Shown piece after piece: positions 6,169 to 13,099 of a DNA stretch of 64,000 nucleotides. The DNA is from Salinivenus lutea. GTDB lineage: Bacteria; Bacteroidota; Rhodothermia; Rhodothermales; Salinibacteraceae. A program made the translations under genes and the position numbers. The notes below the pieces were generated by a model. That model was not told where the DNA came from and ran no database searches. It saw only the letters and a program-made list of their open reading frames with translations. Location of the stretch: NCBI GenBank assembly GCA_002894685.1, contig NCRC01000005.1:62001-126000 (forward strand), written 5' to 3'. Position 1 is the stretch's first letter, and each line of letters opens with the position of its first letter.

Positions 6169-6798
6169 ATGGGATCGCGTCTCGTTGTGTTTGGTCTGGT
6201 GTGGGTCCTGGGGCTCGGGGGCAGCGTGACCGCCTCCCCGATGGGGGAGAGTGTGCAAGAGGGGGAGGGGCCGGGCGACGAGACCAGGGCGGCGTCCGAC
6301 ACGGTGTTCGTCGCCCGGATGCCGGCGATTGAGATTGTTGCGGAGCGGGGTGCGTCGGGGCCGTCCGCAGAGACGCGTGTGGCGTCCGCCGCCTCGTCGC
6401 AGAAAACCGGCACGGCGGCCCGCACACGTCCGACGGAAGCTCGCCAACGGGGAGGAGCATCGCAGCCCGATGGGTCCCCCGACCGGGCATCTGCACGCGG
6501 CGTGGGGGTGGGCGGCTTCGTGATGAACGAGACGTTCTCGGTGGTGGGGGATGACTTCTACACCGCATTTTACGGCGCCTGGTCGGAGCCGGAGGAGGTC
6601 GGCCTCTACACGGTGGCCGTGCAGGAGGAGCCGTCGCCGCAGTTTGGGGCCCGGCTGGCCGTGCACGTGGACGACACCACAATTTTCCGGACCTTCCTGC
6701 GCCCCAACAACCGGAAGATTCAGGATGCGGCCCAGCGCGCGGCCCAACGTGCCCATATCTATTTGAAGAAGTACCACGAACCCCGCGAGGTCTACTAA
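6169..6798 (+). CDS. csgE: Curli assembly factor CsgE
   Basis: A 209-residue secreted protein. CsgE is the periplasmic cap that binds the CsgG pore and gates curlin export. A signal peptide covers about residues 1-23 (SRLVVFGLVWVLGLGGSVTA). A long low-complexity region (about 25-115, Arg/Ala/Ser/Thr-rich) precedes the CsgE domain at about 116-209: GGFVMNETFSVVGDDFYTAFYGAW, a VAVQEEPSPQFGARLAVHVDD strand and a C-terminal DAAQRAAQRAHIYLKK helix. It is longer than E. coli CsgE because of the linker. ATG 6169 was chosen for its preceding GAGAGGGGG ribosome-binding sequence and signal peptide. csgF starts two bases after its stop codon. Confidence 0.85.
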   Translation: MGSRLVVFGLVWVLGLGGSVTASPMGESVQEGEGPGDETRAASDTVFVARMPAIEIVAERGASGPSAETRVASAASSQKTGTAARTRPTEARQRGGASQPDGSPDRASARGVGVGGFVMNETFSVVGDDFYTAFYGAWSEPEEVGLYTVAVQEEPSPQFGARLAVHVDDTTIFRTFLRPNNRKIQDAAQRAAQRAHIYLKKYHEPREVY

Positions 6799-6800
6799 CA

Positions 6801-7292
6801 ATGTCTGCTGCTATGCCCGGTGACCGACCCGAACATTCGTCCGACGCCCGCGGCTGGCGGTCCAGCCTCCGGGGGCTTGTGCTTCTGGTGGGGGCGGCGC
6901 TCCTGGTGATCGGGCTGGGGGCGCGCCCGGCGGCGGGGCAGGACCTCGTCTACCAGCCGACGAACCCGGCCTTCGGGGGCTCGTCAGTCAACTACAGCTG
7001 GCTGCTCAAGTCGGCCAATAATCAGAACCCGTACAGCGGGGGCGGCGGGTTCAGTTCATTCCGCAACGACCCGCTCCAGAACTTCGAGCAGCAGTTGCAG
7101 CGTCAGGTGCTCGACCAGATCTCCCGACAGATTATTCAGGATCGCTTTGGTGAAATCGACCTGACGGAGGAGGGCACCTTCGACTTTGAGCGGTTTCAGG
7201 TGGACGTGACGCCCGGGCCGAGCGGAATCAACATCCGCGTCTTCAACAAGCAGACCGGCGAGAGCACGACCATCGACATCCCACGGTTCTGA
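6801..7292 (+). CDS. csgF: Curli assembly factor CsgF
   Basis: A 163-residue secreted protein. A signal peptide ends near residue 47 (GLGARPAAGQ); its N-terminal leader (first 22 residues) is unusually long and hydrophilic. The mature protein begins DLVYQPTNPAFGGSS, matching the NPxFGG segment through which CsgF inserts into the CsgG channel and forms a second constriction (established for E. coli). The remainder, LQRQVLDQISRQIIQDRFG and the strands FERFQVDVTPGPSGINIRVF, fits the CsgF neck and head. The stop of csgE and this ATG are almost adjacent, so the two are translated from one message; csgG follows after 58 bases. Confidence 0.95.
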   Translation: MSAAMPGDRPEHSSDARGWRSSLRGLVLLVGAALLVIGLGARPAAGQDLVYQPTNPAFGGSSVNYSWLLKSANNQNPYSGGGGFSSFRNDPLQNFEQQLQRQVLDQISRQIIQDRFGEIDLTEEGTFDFERFQVDVTPGPSGINIRVFNKQTGESTTIDIPRF

Positions 7293-7350: not shown

Positions 7351-8736
7351 ATGATCGCACGACGCCTCTTCCCCCTCAGTCTCCTGCTGCTGGTCGGCGC
7401 GACGGTTCTCCTTGTCGGCTGCGCCGCCCCGAAGCACGCCTTCGAGACGAAGGACGCCCACCCCGGGCTGCAGAGCACGGCCCACGACGAAATGACCGAG
7501 CTGCCGGCGCCGCGGGACAAGGTGGTGGCGGCCGTTTATCAGTTCCGGGATCAGACGGGCCAGTACAAGGCCAAGGAGCGGGGCTCTAGCTTTTCCCGGG
7601 CCGTCACGCAGGGCGGGACGTCCATCCTCATGAGGTCTCTGAAGGACTCGGGGTGGTTTCGGCCCATCGAGCGCAAGGGGCTGTCGAACCTCGTGAAGGA
7701 GCGAGACATCATCCGGTCCATTCGCCAGCAGTACGATCGGGAAAACGCCCAGCAGCTCTCCCCCTTGCTCTACGCCGGCATTCTTCTGGAGGGTGGCATC
7801 ATTGGCTACGACACGAACGTGATTACGGGCGGGGGCGGCTTTCGGCTCGCGGCGATCGGCGGGTCGGGGCAGTACCGGCAGGACCAGGTGACGGTGTACC
7901 TGCGCGCCGTGTCGACCCAGACGGGCGAGGTGCTGAAGACGGTGCACACGACGAAGACCATCCTCTCGCAGGAACTGGACGGCGGGGCCTTCCGCTACGT
8001 GGACGCCGACCTGCTCCTGGAAACGGAGGCGGGCATTTCGTACAACGAGCCGACCACCCTGGCCGTGACGGAGGCGATCGAAACCTCGGTGCGCGACCTG
8101 GTGGTGGAGGGCATCCGCGACGGTCTCTTTACGCCGCGCGACTCGTCGGCGGCCCGGGCGGCCATTGCGGACTACGAGCAGCGCAGGGAGCGCGCGTCCC
8201 GTCGCGACTACTTCGACCGCCTGCTGCAACCGGACAACCGGCCGGGCCTGGGACTGCAGGTGAGCGGCGGTGGGATTCTGTACCAGGGTGACTACACGAA
8301 CCCGCAGGCCCGCCCGTCGGGGTCGGTGGGCCTGCAGTACATGATGACGCCGCGCTGGGGCGTGGGCCTTGAGGGCGACCTGGGGCGCCTGAGTGCGGCC
8401 GACGGTCGGTTCAATGAGATGACGCTCTCGACGAACGCGCAGCTCAGCTACTACTTCGTGCCGCGGGCCAAGTTTACGCCGTTCCTGCGCGTGACGGCCG
8501 GGGTGCGCAGTCAGTACCCCTATACCTACCGCTTCGGGAACGACACCTTTCTGCAGGGCGGCGTGAGCCTCGGGGGCGAGGTCATGATCAGCGAGAAACT
8601 GGGCTTTCAGATGTCGGCCGGGGCGCAGTACGCCGCCAGCGACGACCTCGACGGGCAGCGCGTGGGCACGTACCACGACAGCATCTGGCAGGCCGACGTT
8701 GGCCTCACCTACTACGGCCTGGGCTCTCTCTTCTGA
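7351..8736 (+). CDS. csgG: Curli secretion channel CsgG with an extra C-terminal beta-rich domain
   Basis: A 461-residue outer-membrane lipoprotein. The lipobox LLVGC places the acylated cysteine at residue 24. Residues about 25-280 are CsgG: LPAPRDKVVAAVYQFRDQTGQYK, SILMRSLKDSGWFRPIER, LLYAGILLEGGIIGYDTN, VTVYLRAVSTQTGEVLKTV and VRDLVVEGIRDGLF; the nonameric pore built by this family exports unfolded curlin. E. coli CsgG ends there. Here about 170 residues follow, with alternating strands ending in aromatic residues (GLGLQVSGGGILYQG, GLQYMMTPRWGVGLEGDLG, AQLSYYFVPRAKFTPFLRV, ADVGLTYYGLGSLF), which looks like an eight-stranded OmpA-type barrel or outer-membrane beta-barrel domain. It is transcribed with csgE and csgF. 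Confidence 0.93.
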   Translation: MIARRLFPLSLLLLVGATVLLVGCAAPKHAFETKDAHPGLQSTAHDEMTELPAPRDKVVAAVYQFRDQTGQYKAKERGSSFSRAVTQGGTSILMRSLKDSGWFRPIERKGLSNLVKERDIIRSIRQQYDRENAQQLSPLLYAGILLEGGIIGYDTNVITGGGGFRLAAIGGSGQYRQDQVTVYLRAVSTQTGEVLKTVHTTKTILSQELDGGAFRYVDADLLLETEAGISYNEPTTLAVTEAIETSVRDLVVEGIRDGLFTPRDSSAARAAIADYEQRRERASRRDYFDRLLQPDNRPGLGLQVSGGGILYQGDYTNPQARPSGSVGLQYMMTPRWGVGLEGDLGRLSAADGRFNEMTLSTNAQLSYYFVPRAKFTPFLRVTAGVRSQYPYTYRFGNDTFLQGGVSLGGEVMISEKLGFQMSAGAQYAASDDLDGQRVGTYHDSIWQADVGLTYYGLGSLF

Positions 8737-9195: not shown

Positions 9196-10131
9196 ATGAG
9201 ACAGCTTCTCAAGATCACGACAACATTCGCGTTTGCCCTTCTCCTTACGGTGGGCATGGCCTTTGGTCAAAACAACGCCACCGTTAACCAGGACGGAAAC
9301 GGTAACGACGCAACCCTTGATCAAGTCCATGAGGGTCCTGAAGGGATAAATGAAGCCTTCATTGACCAGGATGGGAATAACAATGAAGTCCGCGAGTACG
9401 GGCAACTCGGATCGGGAAACCTCTTAGATATCGTTCAGGATGGCAATGGAAACGTCGTAGAGCCATATCCTGAACAGGGGGAGTCTGATGCTCCGAGTTA
9501 CCTTGGGGAAACGGACATTGATCAGGTTGGCAACAACAACACCGTCTGGGATGCTGACCAGGAGGGGTATAGTAACTACAGCCGAGTCCTTCAAGACGGT
9601 AACAAAAACTTTGCCGACATTGAGGCGCAGGTAAACCCTGATGGCGGTGAGGGGACCGGAAACGCAGTTTGGATTACGCAAACCTCTAATAGAAACCTGA
9701 TCGGAACGAAGGATGGTAACACGGGATTCTTCCAGTACGGTCAGGGAAATGAGGCGACCCTTACCCAGAATGGCACCAAAAATAAGATCGGGACTAAGGC
9801 GGTCTCGAACGCCCCGAATGCGCCTGCCCTTGACGAATCCGGTGTGTCGGGGGGGCCGGCAAGTGAGCAGGGATTCGTTCAGATTGGTTCCGACAACGTT
9901 GCGACTGCAACTCAGATGGGATCCGGCAACGTGGTTGAGTACGGTCTTCAGGAAGGAAGTGGAAATATCCTGAATGCCACGCAGTCGGGTGACAGTCACA
10001 CGGCTCGATTCTCCCAGGTGGGGAACATGAATGAACTCACTCTTGACCAGTCGGGTGTCGGGCATGATGCCAGTATCTTCCAGACCGGAAATAACAACAT
10101 GGCGAACGTGATGCAGTCCGGTGGGAGTTAA
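9196..10131 (+). CDS. Major curlin-repeat protein (CsgA/CsgB-like)
   Basis: A 311-residue secreted amyloid subunit. The signal peptide is MRQLLKITTTFAFALLLTVG to about residue 24, ending MAFGQ. The mature chain has about 14 curlin-type repeats of the form Q-x-G-x-x-N-x-x-x-x-x-Q, for example VNQDGNGNDATLDQ, FIDQDGNNNEV, DIDQVGNNNTV, ATATQMGSGNVVEYG and SIFQTGNNNMANVMQSG. It is about twice the length of E. coli CsgA. The DNA is visibly less GC-rich than its neighbours (two 60-base lines counted by hand give 50% and 55%, against 62% in csgG), partly because Asn, Gln and Asp codons dominate. It probably forms the bulk of the fibre; nucleator versus major subunit cannot be decided by eye. Confidence 0.92.
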   Translation: MRQLLKITTTFAFALLLTVGMAFGQNNATVNQDGNGNDATLDQVHEGPEGINEAFIDQDGNNNEVREYGQLGSGNLLDIVQDGNGNVVEPYPEQGESDAPSYLGETDIDQVGNNNTVWDADQEGYSNYSRVLQDGNKNFADIEAQVNPDGGEGTGNAVWITQTSNRNLIGTKDGNTGFFQYGQGNEATLTQNGTKNKIGTKAVSNAPNAPALDESGVSGGPASEQGFVQIGSDNVATATQMGSGNVVEYGLQEGSGNILNATQSGDSHTARFSQVGNMNELTLDQSGVGHDASIFQTGNNNMANVMQSGGS

Positions 10132-10166: not shown

Positions 10167-10194
10167 GCACCGGGGGCATCGCGTCCCCCGGTGC
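10167..10194 (+). terminator. Perfect 10-bp hairpin after the curlin gene
   Basis: GCACCGGGGG (10167-10176) and CCCCCGGTGC (10185-10194) are exact inverted arms around an 8-base loop. It lies 36 bases after the curlin stop and 6 bases before the tRNA-Asn gene. There is no T run, so it may be a weak terminator, an mRNA 3'-end stabiliser, or a signal that separates the curlin message from the tRNA. Confidence 0.5.
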
Positions 10195-10199
10195 AACCC

Positions 10200-10271
10200 T
10201 GTGGGGTAATTCAACGGGAGAATGCCTGGCTGTTAACCAGGTCGTTGGCGGTTCGAGTCCGCCCCCCACAG
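10200..10271 (+). tRNA. trnN: tRNA-Asn (GTT anticodon)
   Basis: A complete 72-base cloverleaf. Acceptor TGTGGGG pairs with CCCCACA; D stem ATTC/GAAT with loop AACGGGA; anticodon stem CCTGG/CCAGG with loop CTGTTAA, giving anticodon GTT; five-base variable loop TCGTT; T stem GGCGG/CCGCC with loop TTCGAGT. The discriminator base is G, as expected for Asn. The 3' CCA is not encoded. It lies between two curlin genes whose products are unusually rich in asparagine. Confidence 0.97.
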
Positions 10272-10336
10272 CCTCTATTTTTGCTGTTGTGTATGAGCGC
10301 AATGCCCTGCAGCGATCACCATTGCCCACAAGTGTG

Positions 10337-11104
10337 ATGATCAGAAAATCTCTGCGGATGATGCTTTCGGTTAGGCCCGGTTCATTGCTGGGAGCACTTG
10401 TCGCTCTGGGCCTGGCAGGTCTGCTGGGGCTTGGGATTGTCCCGGCGCACGCCCAGGTGCAGATTGAGCAGGTGGAGAATGCGGCCTCGAAGATTCAGGG
10501 GGCCACGGAGGGGCAGGTGATCGTGAAGTTGCAGGAGGAGGCCGGGGAGGTGACGCGCGACGACGTGCTCGGCCTCACGGGGGCGTCGCCCCTGCCCGGC
10601 AACGGCGGCCCGGGGGCACGTGCCGTCGTTGAGCAGGAGGGAGAGGACAACGAGGCAACCGTTACGCAGGAGGGCGAGGGGCACGAGGCGTCGGTTGCCC
10701 AGCTCGGCACCCGAAACGACGTGTCCGTGACCCAGGGGCCCGTAAGCGGCTACGGCGGCACCATCCCCGCCAGCATTGCGGGGGGAGGCTCCACTGGATC
10801 GAACAATCTAGCGGTCGCGGTGCAGAGTGGAAGCGACAACGCGACCACCATCCAGCAGTACGGCAGCGAAAACACCGCCGGGATCCGGCTCGACGGGAGC
10901 GACAACGCGATGGAGCTGCTGCAGGTGGGGCAGGGCAACGAGTACCTGCTCGACCACACCGGAAGCGGCCTCGACCTGACGGGCAGCAAGCGCATTGAGC
11001 AGTTCGGCAACAACAATCTGCTTCGGCAGCAGGGCGCCGGAACGCCCATCAGCGTGCAGATGAAAGGAGAGGGCATCCGGATGGAGATTACCCATACGCC
11101 CTAG
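10337..11104 (+). CDS. Second curlin-repeat protein, possible nucleator (CsgB-like)
   Basis: A 255-residue secreted protein. The signal peptide spans about residues 1-38 (SLLGALVALGLAGLLGLGIV then PAHAQ). Mature repeats include AVVEQEGEDNEATVTQEG, HEASVAQLGTRNDVSVTQ, NLAVAVQSGSDNATTIQQYG, IEQFGNNNLLRQQ and a charged end SVQMKGEGIRMEI. Repeats are fewer and less regular than in the first curlin and the chain opens with a helical, non-repeat region (VENAASKIQGATEGQVIVKLQEE). This, with a basic C-terminal repeat, resembles a minor or nucleating curlin. The start is ATG 10337; the frame is open back through the tRNA gene, which cannot be coding. GC content is higher than in the first curlin. Confidence 0.85.
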   Translation: MIRKSLRMMLSVRPGSLLGALVALGLAGLLGLGIVPAHAQVQIEQVENAASKIQGATEGQVIVKLQEEAGEVTRDDVLGLTGASPLPGNGGPGARAVVEQEGEDNEATVTQEGEGHEASVAQLGTRNDVSVTQGPVSGYGGTIPASIAGGGSTGSNNLAVAVQSGSDNATTIQQYGSENTAGIRLDGSDNAMELLQVGQGNEYLLDHTGSGLDLTGSKRIEQFGNNNLLRQQGAGTPISVQMKGEGIRMEITHTP

Positions 11105-11149
11105 CGGCCGCCCCGCCGATGCGCGTCGATCCAATCGTCGGATGGTCCC

Positions 11150-11317
11150 ATGCGCCGCGTGCTGCCGTTCGGGACGGGCAACCAGATCCGCGCTCAGCAA
11201 CGCAGGATGATGAACAGGGTAAACTTCCGACAGGTCGGGATCGATCGCACGGCACGAGTGCGACGGGACGACATCGGCAACAGGGCGCGGGTCACGCAGC
11301 GGAGCCCCGGCGTGTAG
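11150..11317 (+). CDS. Small Arg-rich curlin-repeat ORF without signal peptide
   Basis: A 55-codon ORF, MRRVLPFGTGNQIRAQQ onward, ending RARVTQRSPGV. From residue 11 the curlin spacing Q-x4-N-x5-Q is kept for three consecutive repeats: N11-x5-Q17-x4-N22-x5-Q28-x4-R33-x5-R39-x4-N44-x5-Q50, with Arg replacing N and Q in the middle one. The ending RVTQR is what I recall as the C-terminus of the E. coli nucleator CsgB. There is no signal peptide, so it could not be exported alone. It lies in the same frame as the second curlin, 45 bases after that gene's TAG, so it may be a remnant of a longer curlin, a readthrough extension, or a small separate gene. Confidence 0.5.
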   Translation: MRRVLPFGTGNQIRAQQRRMMNRVNFRQVGIDRTARVRRDDIGNRARVTQRSPGV

Positions 11318-11344
11318 TTTGTTTCACTTCAGCCCAGCGCGATT

Positions 11345-11764
11345 ATGCAGCTCGGAATCGCCACATTCGGATGGGTCGGTGGCCTCCTGGCCCTGTGCCT
11401 GGCCGGCGGCGGGGGCGCGTCGGGGGGCGAGGCGTCGCCTGCGCGAGCCGCCGCGGCGGACAGCAGCGGGGCGCACATCGGGCTGGAGCGGGAGGGGGAC
11501 CAGCTCCGGGTGCAGGGCCTCTTCGTTGGGGCCGAGGCGGCGTCGGATACGCTGTCCTACGCGTTGACGGTGCGCCGCAGCGGAGCATTCGGCACCACCC
11601 AAACGGCACAGTCCGGCGATTTTGTGCCCACCCCGTCCCGCACCGACACGCTCTCGACCGTGCGGGTAAATGTGCAGTCCGGCGATCGGCTTCGCCTTCG
11701 CCTGATGATCCGGGCGGACGGGGTCCTGATCGACACGGCTCGTATCGACCATTCCATTTCCTAG
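11345..11764 (+). CDS. CsgH-like secreted curli accessory protein
   Basis: A 139-residue protein. A hydrophobic N-terminus (LGIATFGWVGGLLALCLAGG) serves as signal peptide or anchor. The mature part is one beta-sandwich-like domain: LSYALTVRRSGAFGTTQTAQ, then SGDFVP, DTLSTVRVNVQSGDRLRLRL and DGVLIDTARI. The pattern Y-x-L-x-V-x-R-x-G-x-x-G-T-x-x-T-x-Q-S-G-x-F, then L-S-x-V-x-V-N-V-x-x-G-D, is that of CsgH, a periplasmic curli protein described in alphaproteobacteria that limits premature amyloid formation. Position directly after the curlin genes supports this. Overall confidence in the family call is moderate. Confidence 0.7.
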   Translation: MQLGIATFGWVGGLLALCLAGGGGASGGEASPARAAAADSSGAHIGLEREGDQLRVQGLFVGAEAASDTLSYALTVRRSGAFGTTQTAQSGDFVPTPSRTDTLSTVRVNVQSGDRLRLRLMIRADGVLIDTARIDHSIS

Positions 11765-11773
11765 CCCGGTGCC

Positions 11774-12220
11774 ATGTCTCCTTCCGACCCCGACCGCGAG
11801 ATCCAAACGGATGCGTCCCGCCTGCAGCGAGACGGGGGGCGTCCCGCGGAGGAGGCGGGGGGCGACGAGGAGGCGACGCTGGAGATGCCGTACGACGAGG
11901 CCGCCGAGGCGGACGGGACGGGCGCGCAGCTGGTCGTCGAGCAGAAGCTGGCTCTGGTCCGCGCACGGGCCCTGTTTGTCAACGAGGACGGGTGGCGGGG
12001 ACCGCTCCTTTACACGTTTGCGGCGCGCCGCCGGGGCGTTTCCGGGACGGCCGAGATAAGCCGGTCGGGCACCGTATCGCTCGCCACCGGGGAGAGTACG
12101 GTGCTTACCACCCTGCCCATTAGCGTGGAGGCCGGGGATCGGCTGGCCCTGCAGGTGGTCGTGTTTGCGGACACGACGCCGATCAGTGAGGCCCGTGCAC
12201 GCCACCACGTGCCGCCCTGA
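11774..12220 (+). CDS. Second CsgH-like protein, apparently without a signal peptide
   Basis: A 148-residue protein. The C-terminal half is a divergent copy of the upstream CsgH-like domain: GPLLYTFAARRRGVSGTAEI, SRSGTVSLATGESTVL, and LPISVEAGDRLALQVVV. The first 50 residues are acidic and hydrophilic (SPSDPDREIQTDASRLQRDG), with no hydrophobic stretch, so secretion by Sec is not evident. It starts 10 bases after the previous stop codon, so both are co-transcribed. It may act in the cytoplasm on newly made curlin, be exported another way, or start elsewhere; I saw no alternative start that would give a signal peptide. Confidence 0.6.
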   Translation: MSPSDPDREIQTDASRLQRDGGRPAEEAGGDEEATLEMPYDEAAEADGTGAQLVVEQKLALVRARALFVNEDGWRGPLLYTFAARRRGVSGTAEISRSGTVSLATGESTVLTTLPISVEAGDRLALQVVVFADTTPISEARARHHVPP

Positions 12221-12421: not shown

Positions 12422-13099
12422 ATGTCCATCCAGTGCACTCGGGGGCCGTGGGCTTCCACCTCCCTGCTTTTGTCCCTGCTCGTCGCCCTCGCCGTCGTGG
12501 GGTGCGACGAGGAAACGGTCGGCCCGGAGACGCGAGGCAGCATTGAGGGACAGGTCCAGGACGCGTCTACGAGCGAGCCCGTTGCCGGGGCCGGCATCAC
12601 AACCAGTCCGCCCACGGAGTCCGTCCTGTCGGGCAACGACGGCACCTTTGCCCTCGACGACGTGAGTACCGGCAACTACACCGTCGAGGTCAGCAAAACG
12701 GGCTACAAGAGCCGCAACGTGACCGTCAAGGTGCGGGAGAACCGGACGGCCAGCGCCACGATCCTCCTTGAGCGCGGCGACGACTTCGGCACGCAGACCG
12801 ACTCGTTGACCGCCGAGGTGACGAACTGGTACAACGACCGCGTCAACCGCGACAGCACCGGGGCCGACAGCATTTTTGCCGACGTGGAATATAGCGTCCG
12901 AAACGTGGGCGACGTGCCGGTGCGGCGCTACGAGGTGTACTTCGAGATCACCACGTCGGACGGCACGTTCTCGTTCGAAGCCGAAGGCGACAGCCTAGAG
13001 GCGACTCAGCGGGACATCGGGGGGTTCCGAAAGTACATCACGAACGACGCCCAGGCCGTCGAGATTACGGACCTCTACTACGAGACGAGCGAGAGCTGA
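12422..13099 (+). CDS. Lipoprotein with a carboxypeptidase-regulatory-like domain
   Basis: A 225-residue lipoprotein. The signal peptide ends in the lipobox LAVVGC, with the acylated Cys at residue 28. Residues about 38-118 form a CarboxypepD_reg-like beta-sandwich (GSIEGQVQDASTSEPVAGAG, NDGTFALDDVSTGNYTVEVS, GYKSRNVTVKV). The rest (about 125-225) is a second beta-rich region, SIFADVEYSVRNVGDVPVRR then YEVYFEI, that resembles domains describing extracellular attachment rather than catalysis. No catalytic residues are visible. It lies 200 bases downstream of the CsgH-like pair; whether it belongs to the curli locus is not shown. Confidence 0.75.
   Translation: MSIQCTRGPWASTSLLLSLLVALAVVGCDEETVGPETRGSIEGQVQDASTSEPVAGAGITTSPPTESVLSGNDGTFALDDVSTGNYTVEVSKTGYKSRNVTVKVRENRTASATILLERGDDFGTQTDSLTAEVTNWYNDRVNRDSTGADSIFADVEYSVRNVGDVPVRRYEVYFEITTSDGTFSFEAEGDSLEATQRDIGGFRKYITNDAQAVEITDLYYETSES

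Follow-up and report, generated by a model that had tools for sequence, protein, structure and literature searches.

Curli operons vary in the number of csgA and csgB copies that they carry, and curlin pseudogenes have been discussed among them; reorganization of csg genes seldom leaves disrupted genes behind (PMC3521004). Repeat units are counted below by the curlin repeat definition of PMC10192328. In a 64,000-nucleotide stretch of DNA from Salinivenus lutea (the window), a 55-codon open reading frame (ORF) lies between csgB and csgH, and we conclude that it is very probably what is left of a third curlin gene formerly located at this place. It would be a case of such disruption within an operon that is otherwise intact. 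CsgB (NCBIfam NF007506) is the best named family both for this remnant and for a full-length gene of Salinivenus iranica, and N-x5-Q strands are common to them; the small ORF differs from CsgB, however, in lacking a leader and in having about two repeats where CsgB has five. The third curlin of S. iranica is strongly basic, and its apparent loss in the sister species would explain this puzzling small ORF.

Organization of the operon and of the small ORF

The protein-coding genes of the operon all lie on the forward strand. They are csgF (6801 to 7292; Pfam CsgF, E = 3e-37), csgG (7351 to 8736; Pfam CsgG, E = 9e-62), a csgA-like gene for a 311-aa curlin with nine matched repeat stretches (9196 to 10131; Pfam Curlin_rpt, E = 7.2e-31), and, after a tRNA-like gene (see below), a csgB-like gene for a 255-aa curlin with a signal peptide and a TAG end (10337 to 11104; Pfam Curlin_rpt, E = 8.6e-18), the small ORF (11150 to 11317), and two genes for csgH-like chaperones (11345 to 11764, NCBIfam CsgH, E = 9.5e-17, above the cutoff; 11774 to 12220, NCBIfam CsgH, E = 3.4e-9, 36.6 bits with a cutoff of 35). 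The small ORF has csg export genes as its neighbors. CsgG, of 461 residues, has a C-terminal region that resembles an outer membrane beta-barrel (Pfam OMP_b-brl, E = 4.2e-6, just below the cutoff). A predicted carboxypeptidase-regulatory-domain-like protein is encoded after csgH in the curli clusters of Salinibacter ruber plasmids (L061:7361-8035; L062:11129-11782), and a gene occupies the corresponding place in the window (12422 to 13099) and likewise in S. iranica.

The small ORF starts with an ATG at 11150, 45 bases past the csgB-like TAG (11102 to 11104) and in the frame of that gene, and ends at 11317 (MRRVLPFGTGNQIRAQQRRMMNRVNFRQVGIDRTARVRRDDIGNRARVTQRSPGV). A rereading of the sequence recovered these coordinates and the 15 open in-frame codons between TAG and ATG as they had first been described, together with every residue of the reported register (N11, Q17, N22, Q28, R33, R39, N44, and Q50). 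The length of the ORF is unremarkable, because 70 open codons are expected with P = 0.14 to 0.21 at the local composition; its periodicity is not a product of chance, being reached by 0 of 20,000 residue shuffles, in a test picked after the pattern had been seen. The original prediction also spoke of three curlin repeats of perfect spacing. Three of the four strands are indeed of the N-x5-Q form at the 11-residue period, but the units are 11-residue half-repeats of one strand each, the remaining strand is R-x5-R, and the whole amounts to about two full curlin repeats of 22 to 23 residues. In these four half-repeats (NQIRAQQ, NRVNFRQ, RTARVRR, which is degenerate, and NRARVTQ; 11171 to 11314, forward strand), one consensus Gln is replaced by Arg and the turn glycine two residues past the Gln position is present in one of four, versus four of four in S. 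iranica, leaving a single Q-x-G turn.

Two features of functional curlins are missing from the small ORF. A hydropathy scan found no Sec signal peptide for any choice of start, in agreement with the first description; the maximal 11-residue hydropathy is 0.06, versus 2.3 to 2.9 in the leaders of csgA, csgB, and the S. iranica third curlin. The Pfam curlin repeat model (PF07012, Curlin_rpt) gave no match to the last 48 residues of the window ORF up to an E value of 10, whereas it scores the orthologous 48 C-terminal residues of the S. iranica protein at 25.1 bits (cutoff, 20.7). The resemblance of the RVTQR end to CsgB, which had likewise been proposed, finds faint support in the NCBIfam CsgB model (E = 0.0034), with a score of 17.1 bits that is far below the equivalog cutoff of 165.

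A full-length third curlin in S. iranica and a probable remnant in the window

A comparison with relatives, proposed in the original prediction as a check, located a full third curlin gene of 247 codons between csgB and csgH of S. iranica CB7 (L031:5156-5899; accession no. NCRB01000003.1). The gene order csgF-csgG-csgA-csgB-X-csgH-csgH is common to the two species, with an X of 247 codons in S. iranica versus 55 in the window. The S. iranica product has a hydrophobic leader (MRCVLELTLLVLLLAGVGGVRAQ) and Pfam-recognized curlin repeats (E = 1e-9), and its similarity to NCBIfam CsgB is weak (E = 4.8e-12, under the equivalog cutoff). The small ORF shares with it the locus, the start region, the C-terminal repeats, the stop position, and strong basicity but differs from it in having neither a leader nor a Pfam match. 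The pI is 12.0 for the small ORF and 11.8 for the intact protein, and since the latter is equally basic, the Arg richness of the small ORF is not a sign of decay. A pI of 11.8 is unexpected in a protein secreted by an extreme halophile; the csgA and csgB products of the window are acidic (pI 4.1 and 4.7).

While blastn alone failed to align the third curlin between the species, protein and codon alignments succeeded. The last 48 codons of the window ORF align ungapped to the S. iranica C terminus (L031:5753-5896), with the same stop codon position and 40% amino acid identity. The HMMER match of the small ORF to the S. iranica protein has an E value of 2.6e-6, and the ungapped alignment score is 85 versus a shuffle mean of -34 (standard deviation, 15); this homology rules out a chance ORF. 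At the 5' end, 18 bases before the ATG and 15 coding bases align without gaps to the start region of the gene in S. iranica, with 21 of 33 bases identical (P = 0.001 for the local alignment). We rejected a placement in which the C-terminal homology extends upstream of the ATG to a breakpoint beside the csgB stop (P = 0.27, versus 0.001 for the 5' end alignment). Because the 5' and C-terminal alignments both hold, the window has the gene's two ends but lacks 192 codons (576 bases; 247 minus 55) found in S. iranica, most of the leader among them. The ATG and codons 1 to 5 (11150 to 11164, forward strand) encode MRRVL, the putative remnant of a signal peptide start that reads MRCVL in S. iranica; codon counts place the approximate junction at 11165 to 11170 of the same strand, and what follows corresponds to the last 48 to 50 codons or so.

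The original gene would have been as in S. iranica, encoding a Sec signal peptide and a long N-terminal region, followed by CsgB-like curlin repeats at the C terminus. A loss in the window lineage would then have removed 192 codons, from after codon 5 to about codon 198 and with them most of the signal peptide; being by chance a multiple of three, it would have fused the first five codons in frame to the last four half-repeats. In S. iranica, the motif TCCTG occurs at each of the two sites that would border the junction, and a deletion between such short repeats is plausible. Because the signal peptide is gone, export through Sec and CsgG would be closed to the product, which hence could not take part in curli, and the leftover repeats would have drifted to the state described above, with one Gln and three of the four turn glycines lost. 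We infer that the ancestral gene was the long form and that the product of the remnant is without function; a loss in the window is preferred over a gain in S. iranica by parsimony, because the searched genomes include only one intact relative. No full third curlin besides that of S. iranica was found in 27 genomes of the family, nor was an intact copy found elsewhere in the genome of the window, and a scan of genome contigs returned only S. iranica and one uncultured relative. A decayed third curlin had been one of three options in the original prediction, and it is the one supported by the intact syntenic gene: the small ORF is very probably a product of ordinary gene decay, neither a new amyloid peptide nor a readthrough mechanism.

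The two copies of the third curlin differ at 18, 19, and 32 first, second, and third codon positions, respectively, with a dN of about 0.5 and a saturated dS. Such an excess at third positions is typical of DNA whose protein product was conserved over a long time. It shows that the repeats, whose frame is still open, were under selection for much of their history, which counts against the remnant reading. Repeat consensus residues are lost in the window only, with branch-specific rates inseparable because dS is saturated and the comparison has no outgroup. Nucleotide identity between the window and S. iranica is 88 to 98% for csgF, csgG, and csgB (88% for csgB), 66 to 74% for the csgH pair, 52% for the third curlin (over the aligned codons), and 51% for csgA. 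Divergence within this one operon is thus uneven, as if csgA, the third curlin, and csgH had been swapped or were evolving fast. Given 52% identity for the third curlin versus 88% for csgB, the window copy may come from a diverged allele that has never been seen in full.

Alternative readings of the small ORF

A living small gene would encode an Arg-rich curlin peptide, cytosolic or otherwise exported, that nucleates or inhibits curlin assembly. Its open frame, its preserved period, and a codon position bias typical of a coding history are as expected of such a gene, but it lacks the signal peptide, the Pfam repeat match, and most of the turn glycines, it has about two repeats versus at least four in a survey of CsgA (PMC10192328), and the 55-codon form occurs in one genome only. 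The separate small amyloid-like peptide suggested at the outset thus gains no positive support, and we consider it highly improbable. A related reading, in which the in-frame stump is still translated and its leaderless, Arg-rich, two-repeat peptide remains intracellular and acts as a template or a block for curlin folding, is in our judgment very unlikely.

A similarly slim chance attaches to the short form being the older one or deriving from a divergent allele in which the middle part of the S. iranica gene was never present. The divergence of the third curlin, which like that of csgA is far above that of csgB, is consistent with this reading, as is the arrangement of the other curli loci checked with csgH after csgB, including that of the S. 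ruber plasmid pSR84, where the two genes are adjacent and no curlin was found between them. Nevertheless, the S. iranica gene is recognizable in the window at both its ends, with the signal peptide start among the matching parts, and it is hard to see why a curlin without a leader should arise.

Programmed readthrough of the csgB TAG, the third option of the original prediction, would add a 70-residue tail with extra repeats. The window ORF does lie in the csgB frame behind a TAG and 15 open codons, but in-frame placement has a chance of 1 in 3, and the 15 linking codons carry no repeat. In S. iranica, moreover, neither a conserved frame nor a leaky stop was found: csgB stops with TAA, the third curlin follows after a spacer of 46 bases, versus 45 in the window, and so lies in another frame (offset, 1), the frame past the csgB stop encodes no curlin repeats, and the third curlin has its own start and leader. 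These findings speak against the option, which we regard as extremely unlikely. Hardly more credible is a deletion confined to this assembly: the genome is a draft of 76 contigs, but the C-terminal part has also lost consensus residues and copies no other locus of the genome.

A tRNA-like element between csgA and csgB

The element that separates csgA from csgB in the window (10200 to 10273, preceded by a hairpin at 10167 to 10194) is called tRNA-Asn(GTT) by ARAGORN and looks more interesting than the small ORF; another tRNA-Asn(GTT) is present elsewhere in the genome. Homologues lie at L031:4211-4284 (S. iranica), at 6641 to 6715 and 11134 to 11206 of the reverse complement of L046, at L061:5737-5809, and at the end of the reverse complement of L053. 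The element thus occurs at the csgA-csgB junction of S. iranica, twice in the genome labeled G010, after csgA at a contig end in the genome labeled G005, and in the csgA-csgB gap of pSR84; a second S. ruber plasmid has a matching copy. No match to a strict pattern of the element turned up in the remaining 392 genomes of a sample taken across the phylum, and the curli-free genomes of the genus lack it. It was seen only at curli loci of Salinibacter and Salinivenus. No tRNA at curli loci is mentioned by Dueholm et al. (PMC3521004), and a literature search combining tRNA with curli, csgB, and RNase P returned nothing on such an element.

The acceptor stem, the T arm, and the D-loop sequence are nearly constant among the copies, most of which have a strong hairpin ahead of them, and the anticodon region varies. 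The anticodon is GTT in the window and in one G010 copy, the S. iranica and G005 copies lack U33 in the loop, and no ordinary anticodon loop is present in that of pSR84 or in the second one of G010. On the likeliest reading, the element travels with curli operons. It is perhaps a processing signal that separates the csgA and csgB messages, or it may be a tRNA that serves the Asn-rich curlins. G010 has another stretch of curlin repeats, with an in-frame TAG (about 11339 to 11449 of the reverse complement of L046; G010:C1:2156552-2156662), that lies between its second csgB and the tRNA-like element and is probably a second, independent curlin remnant.
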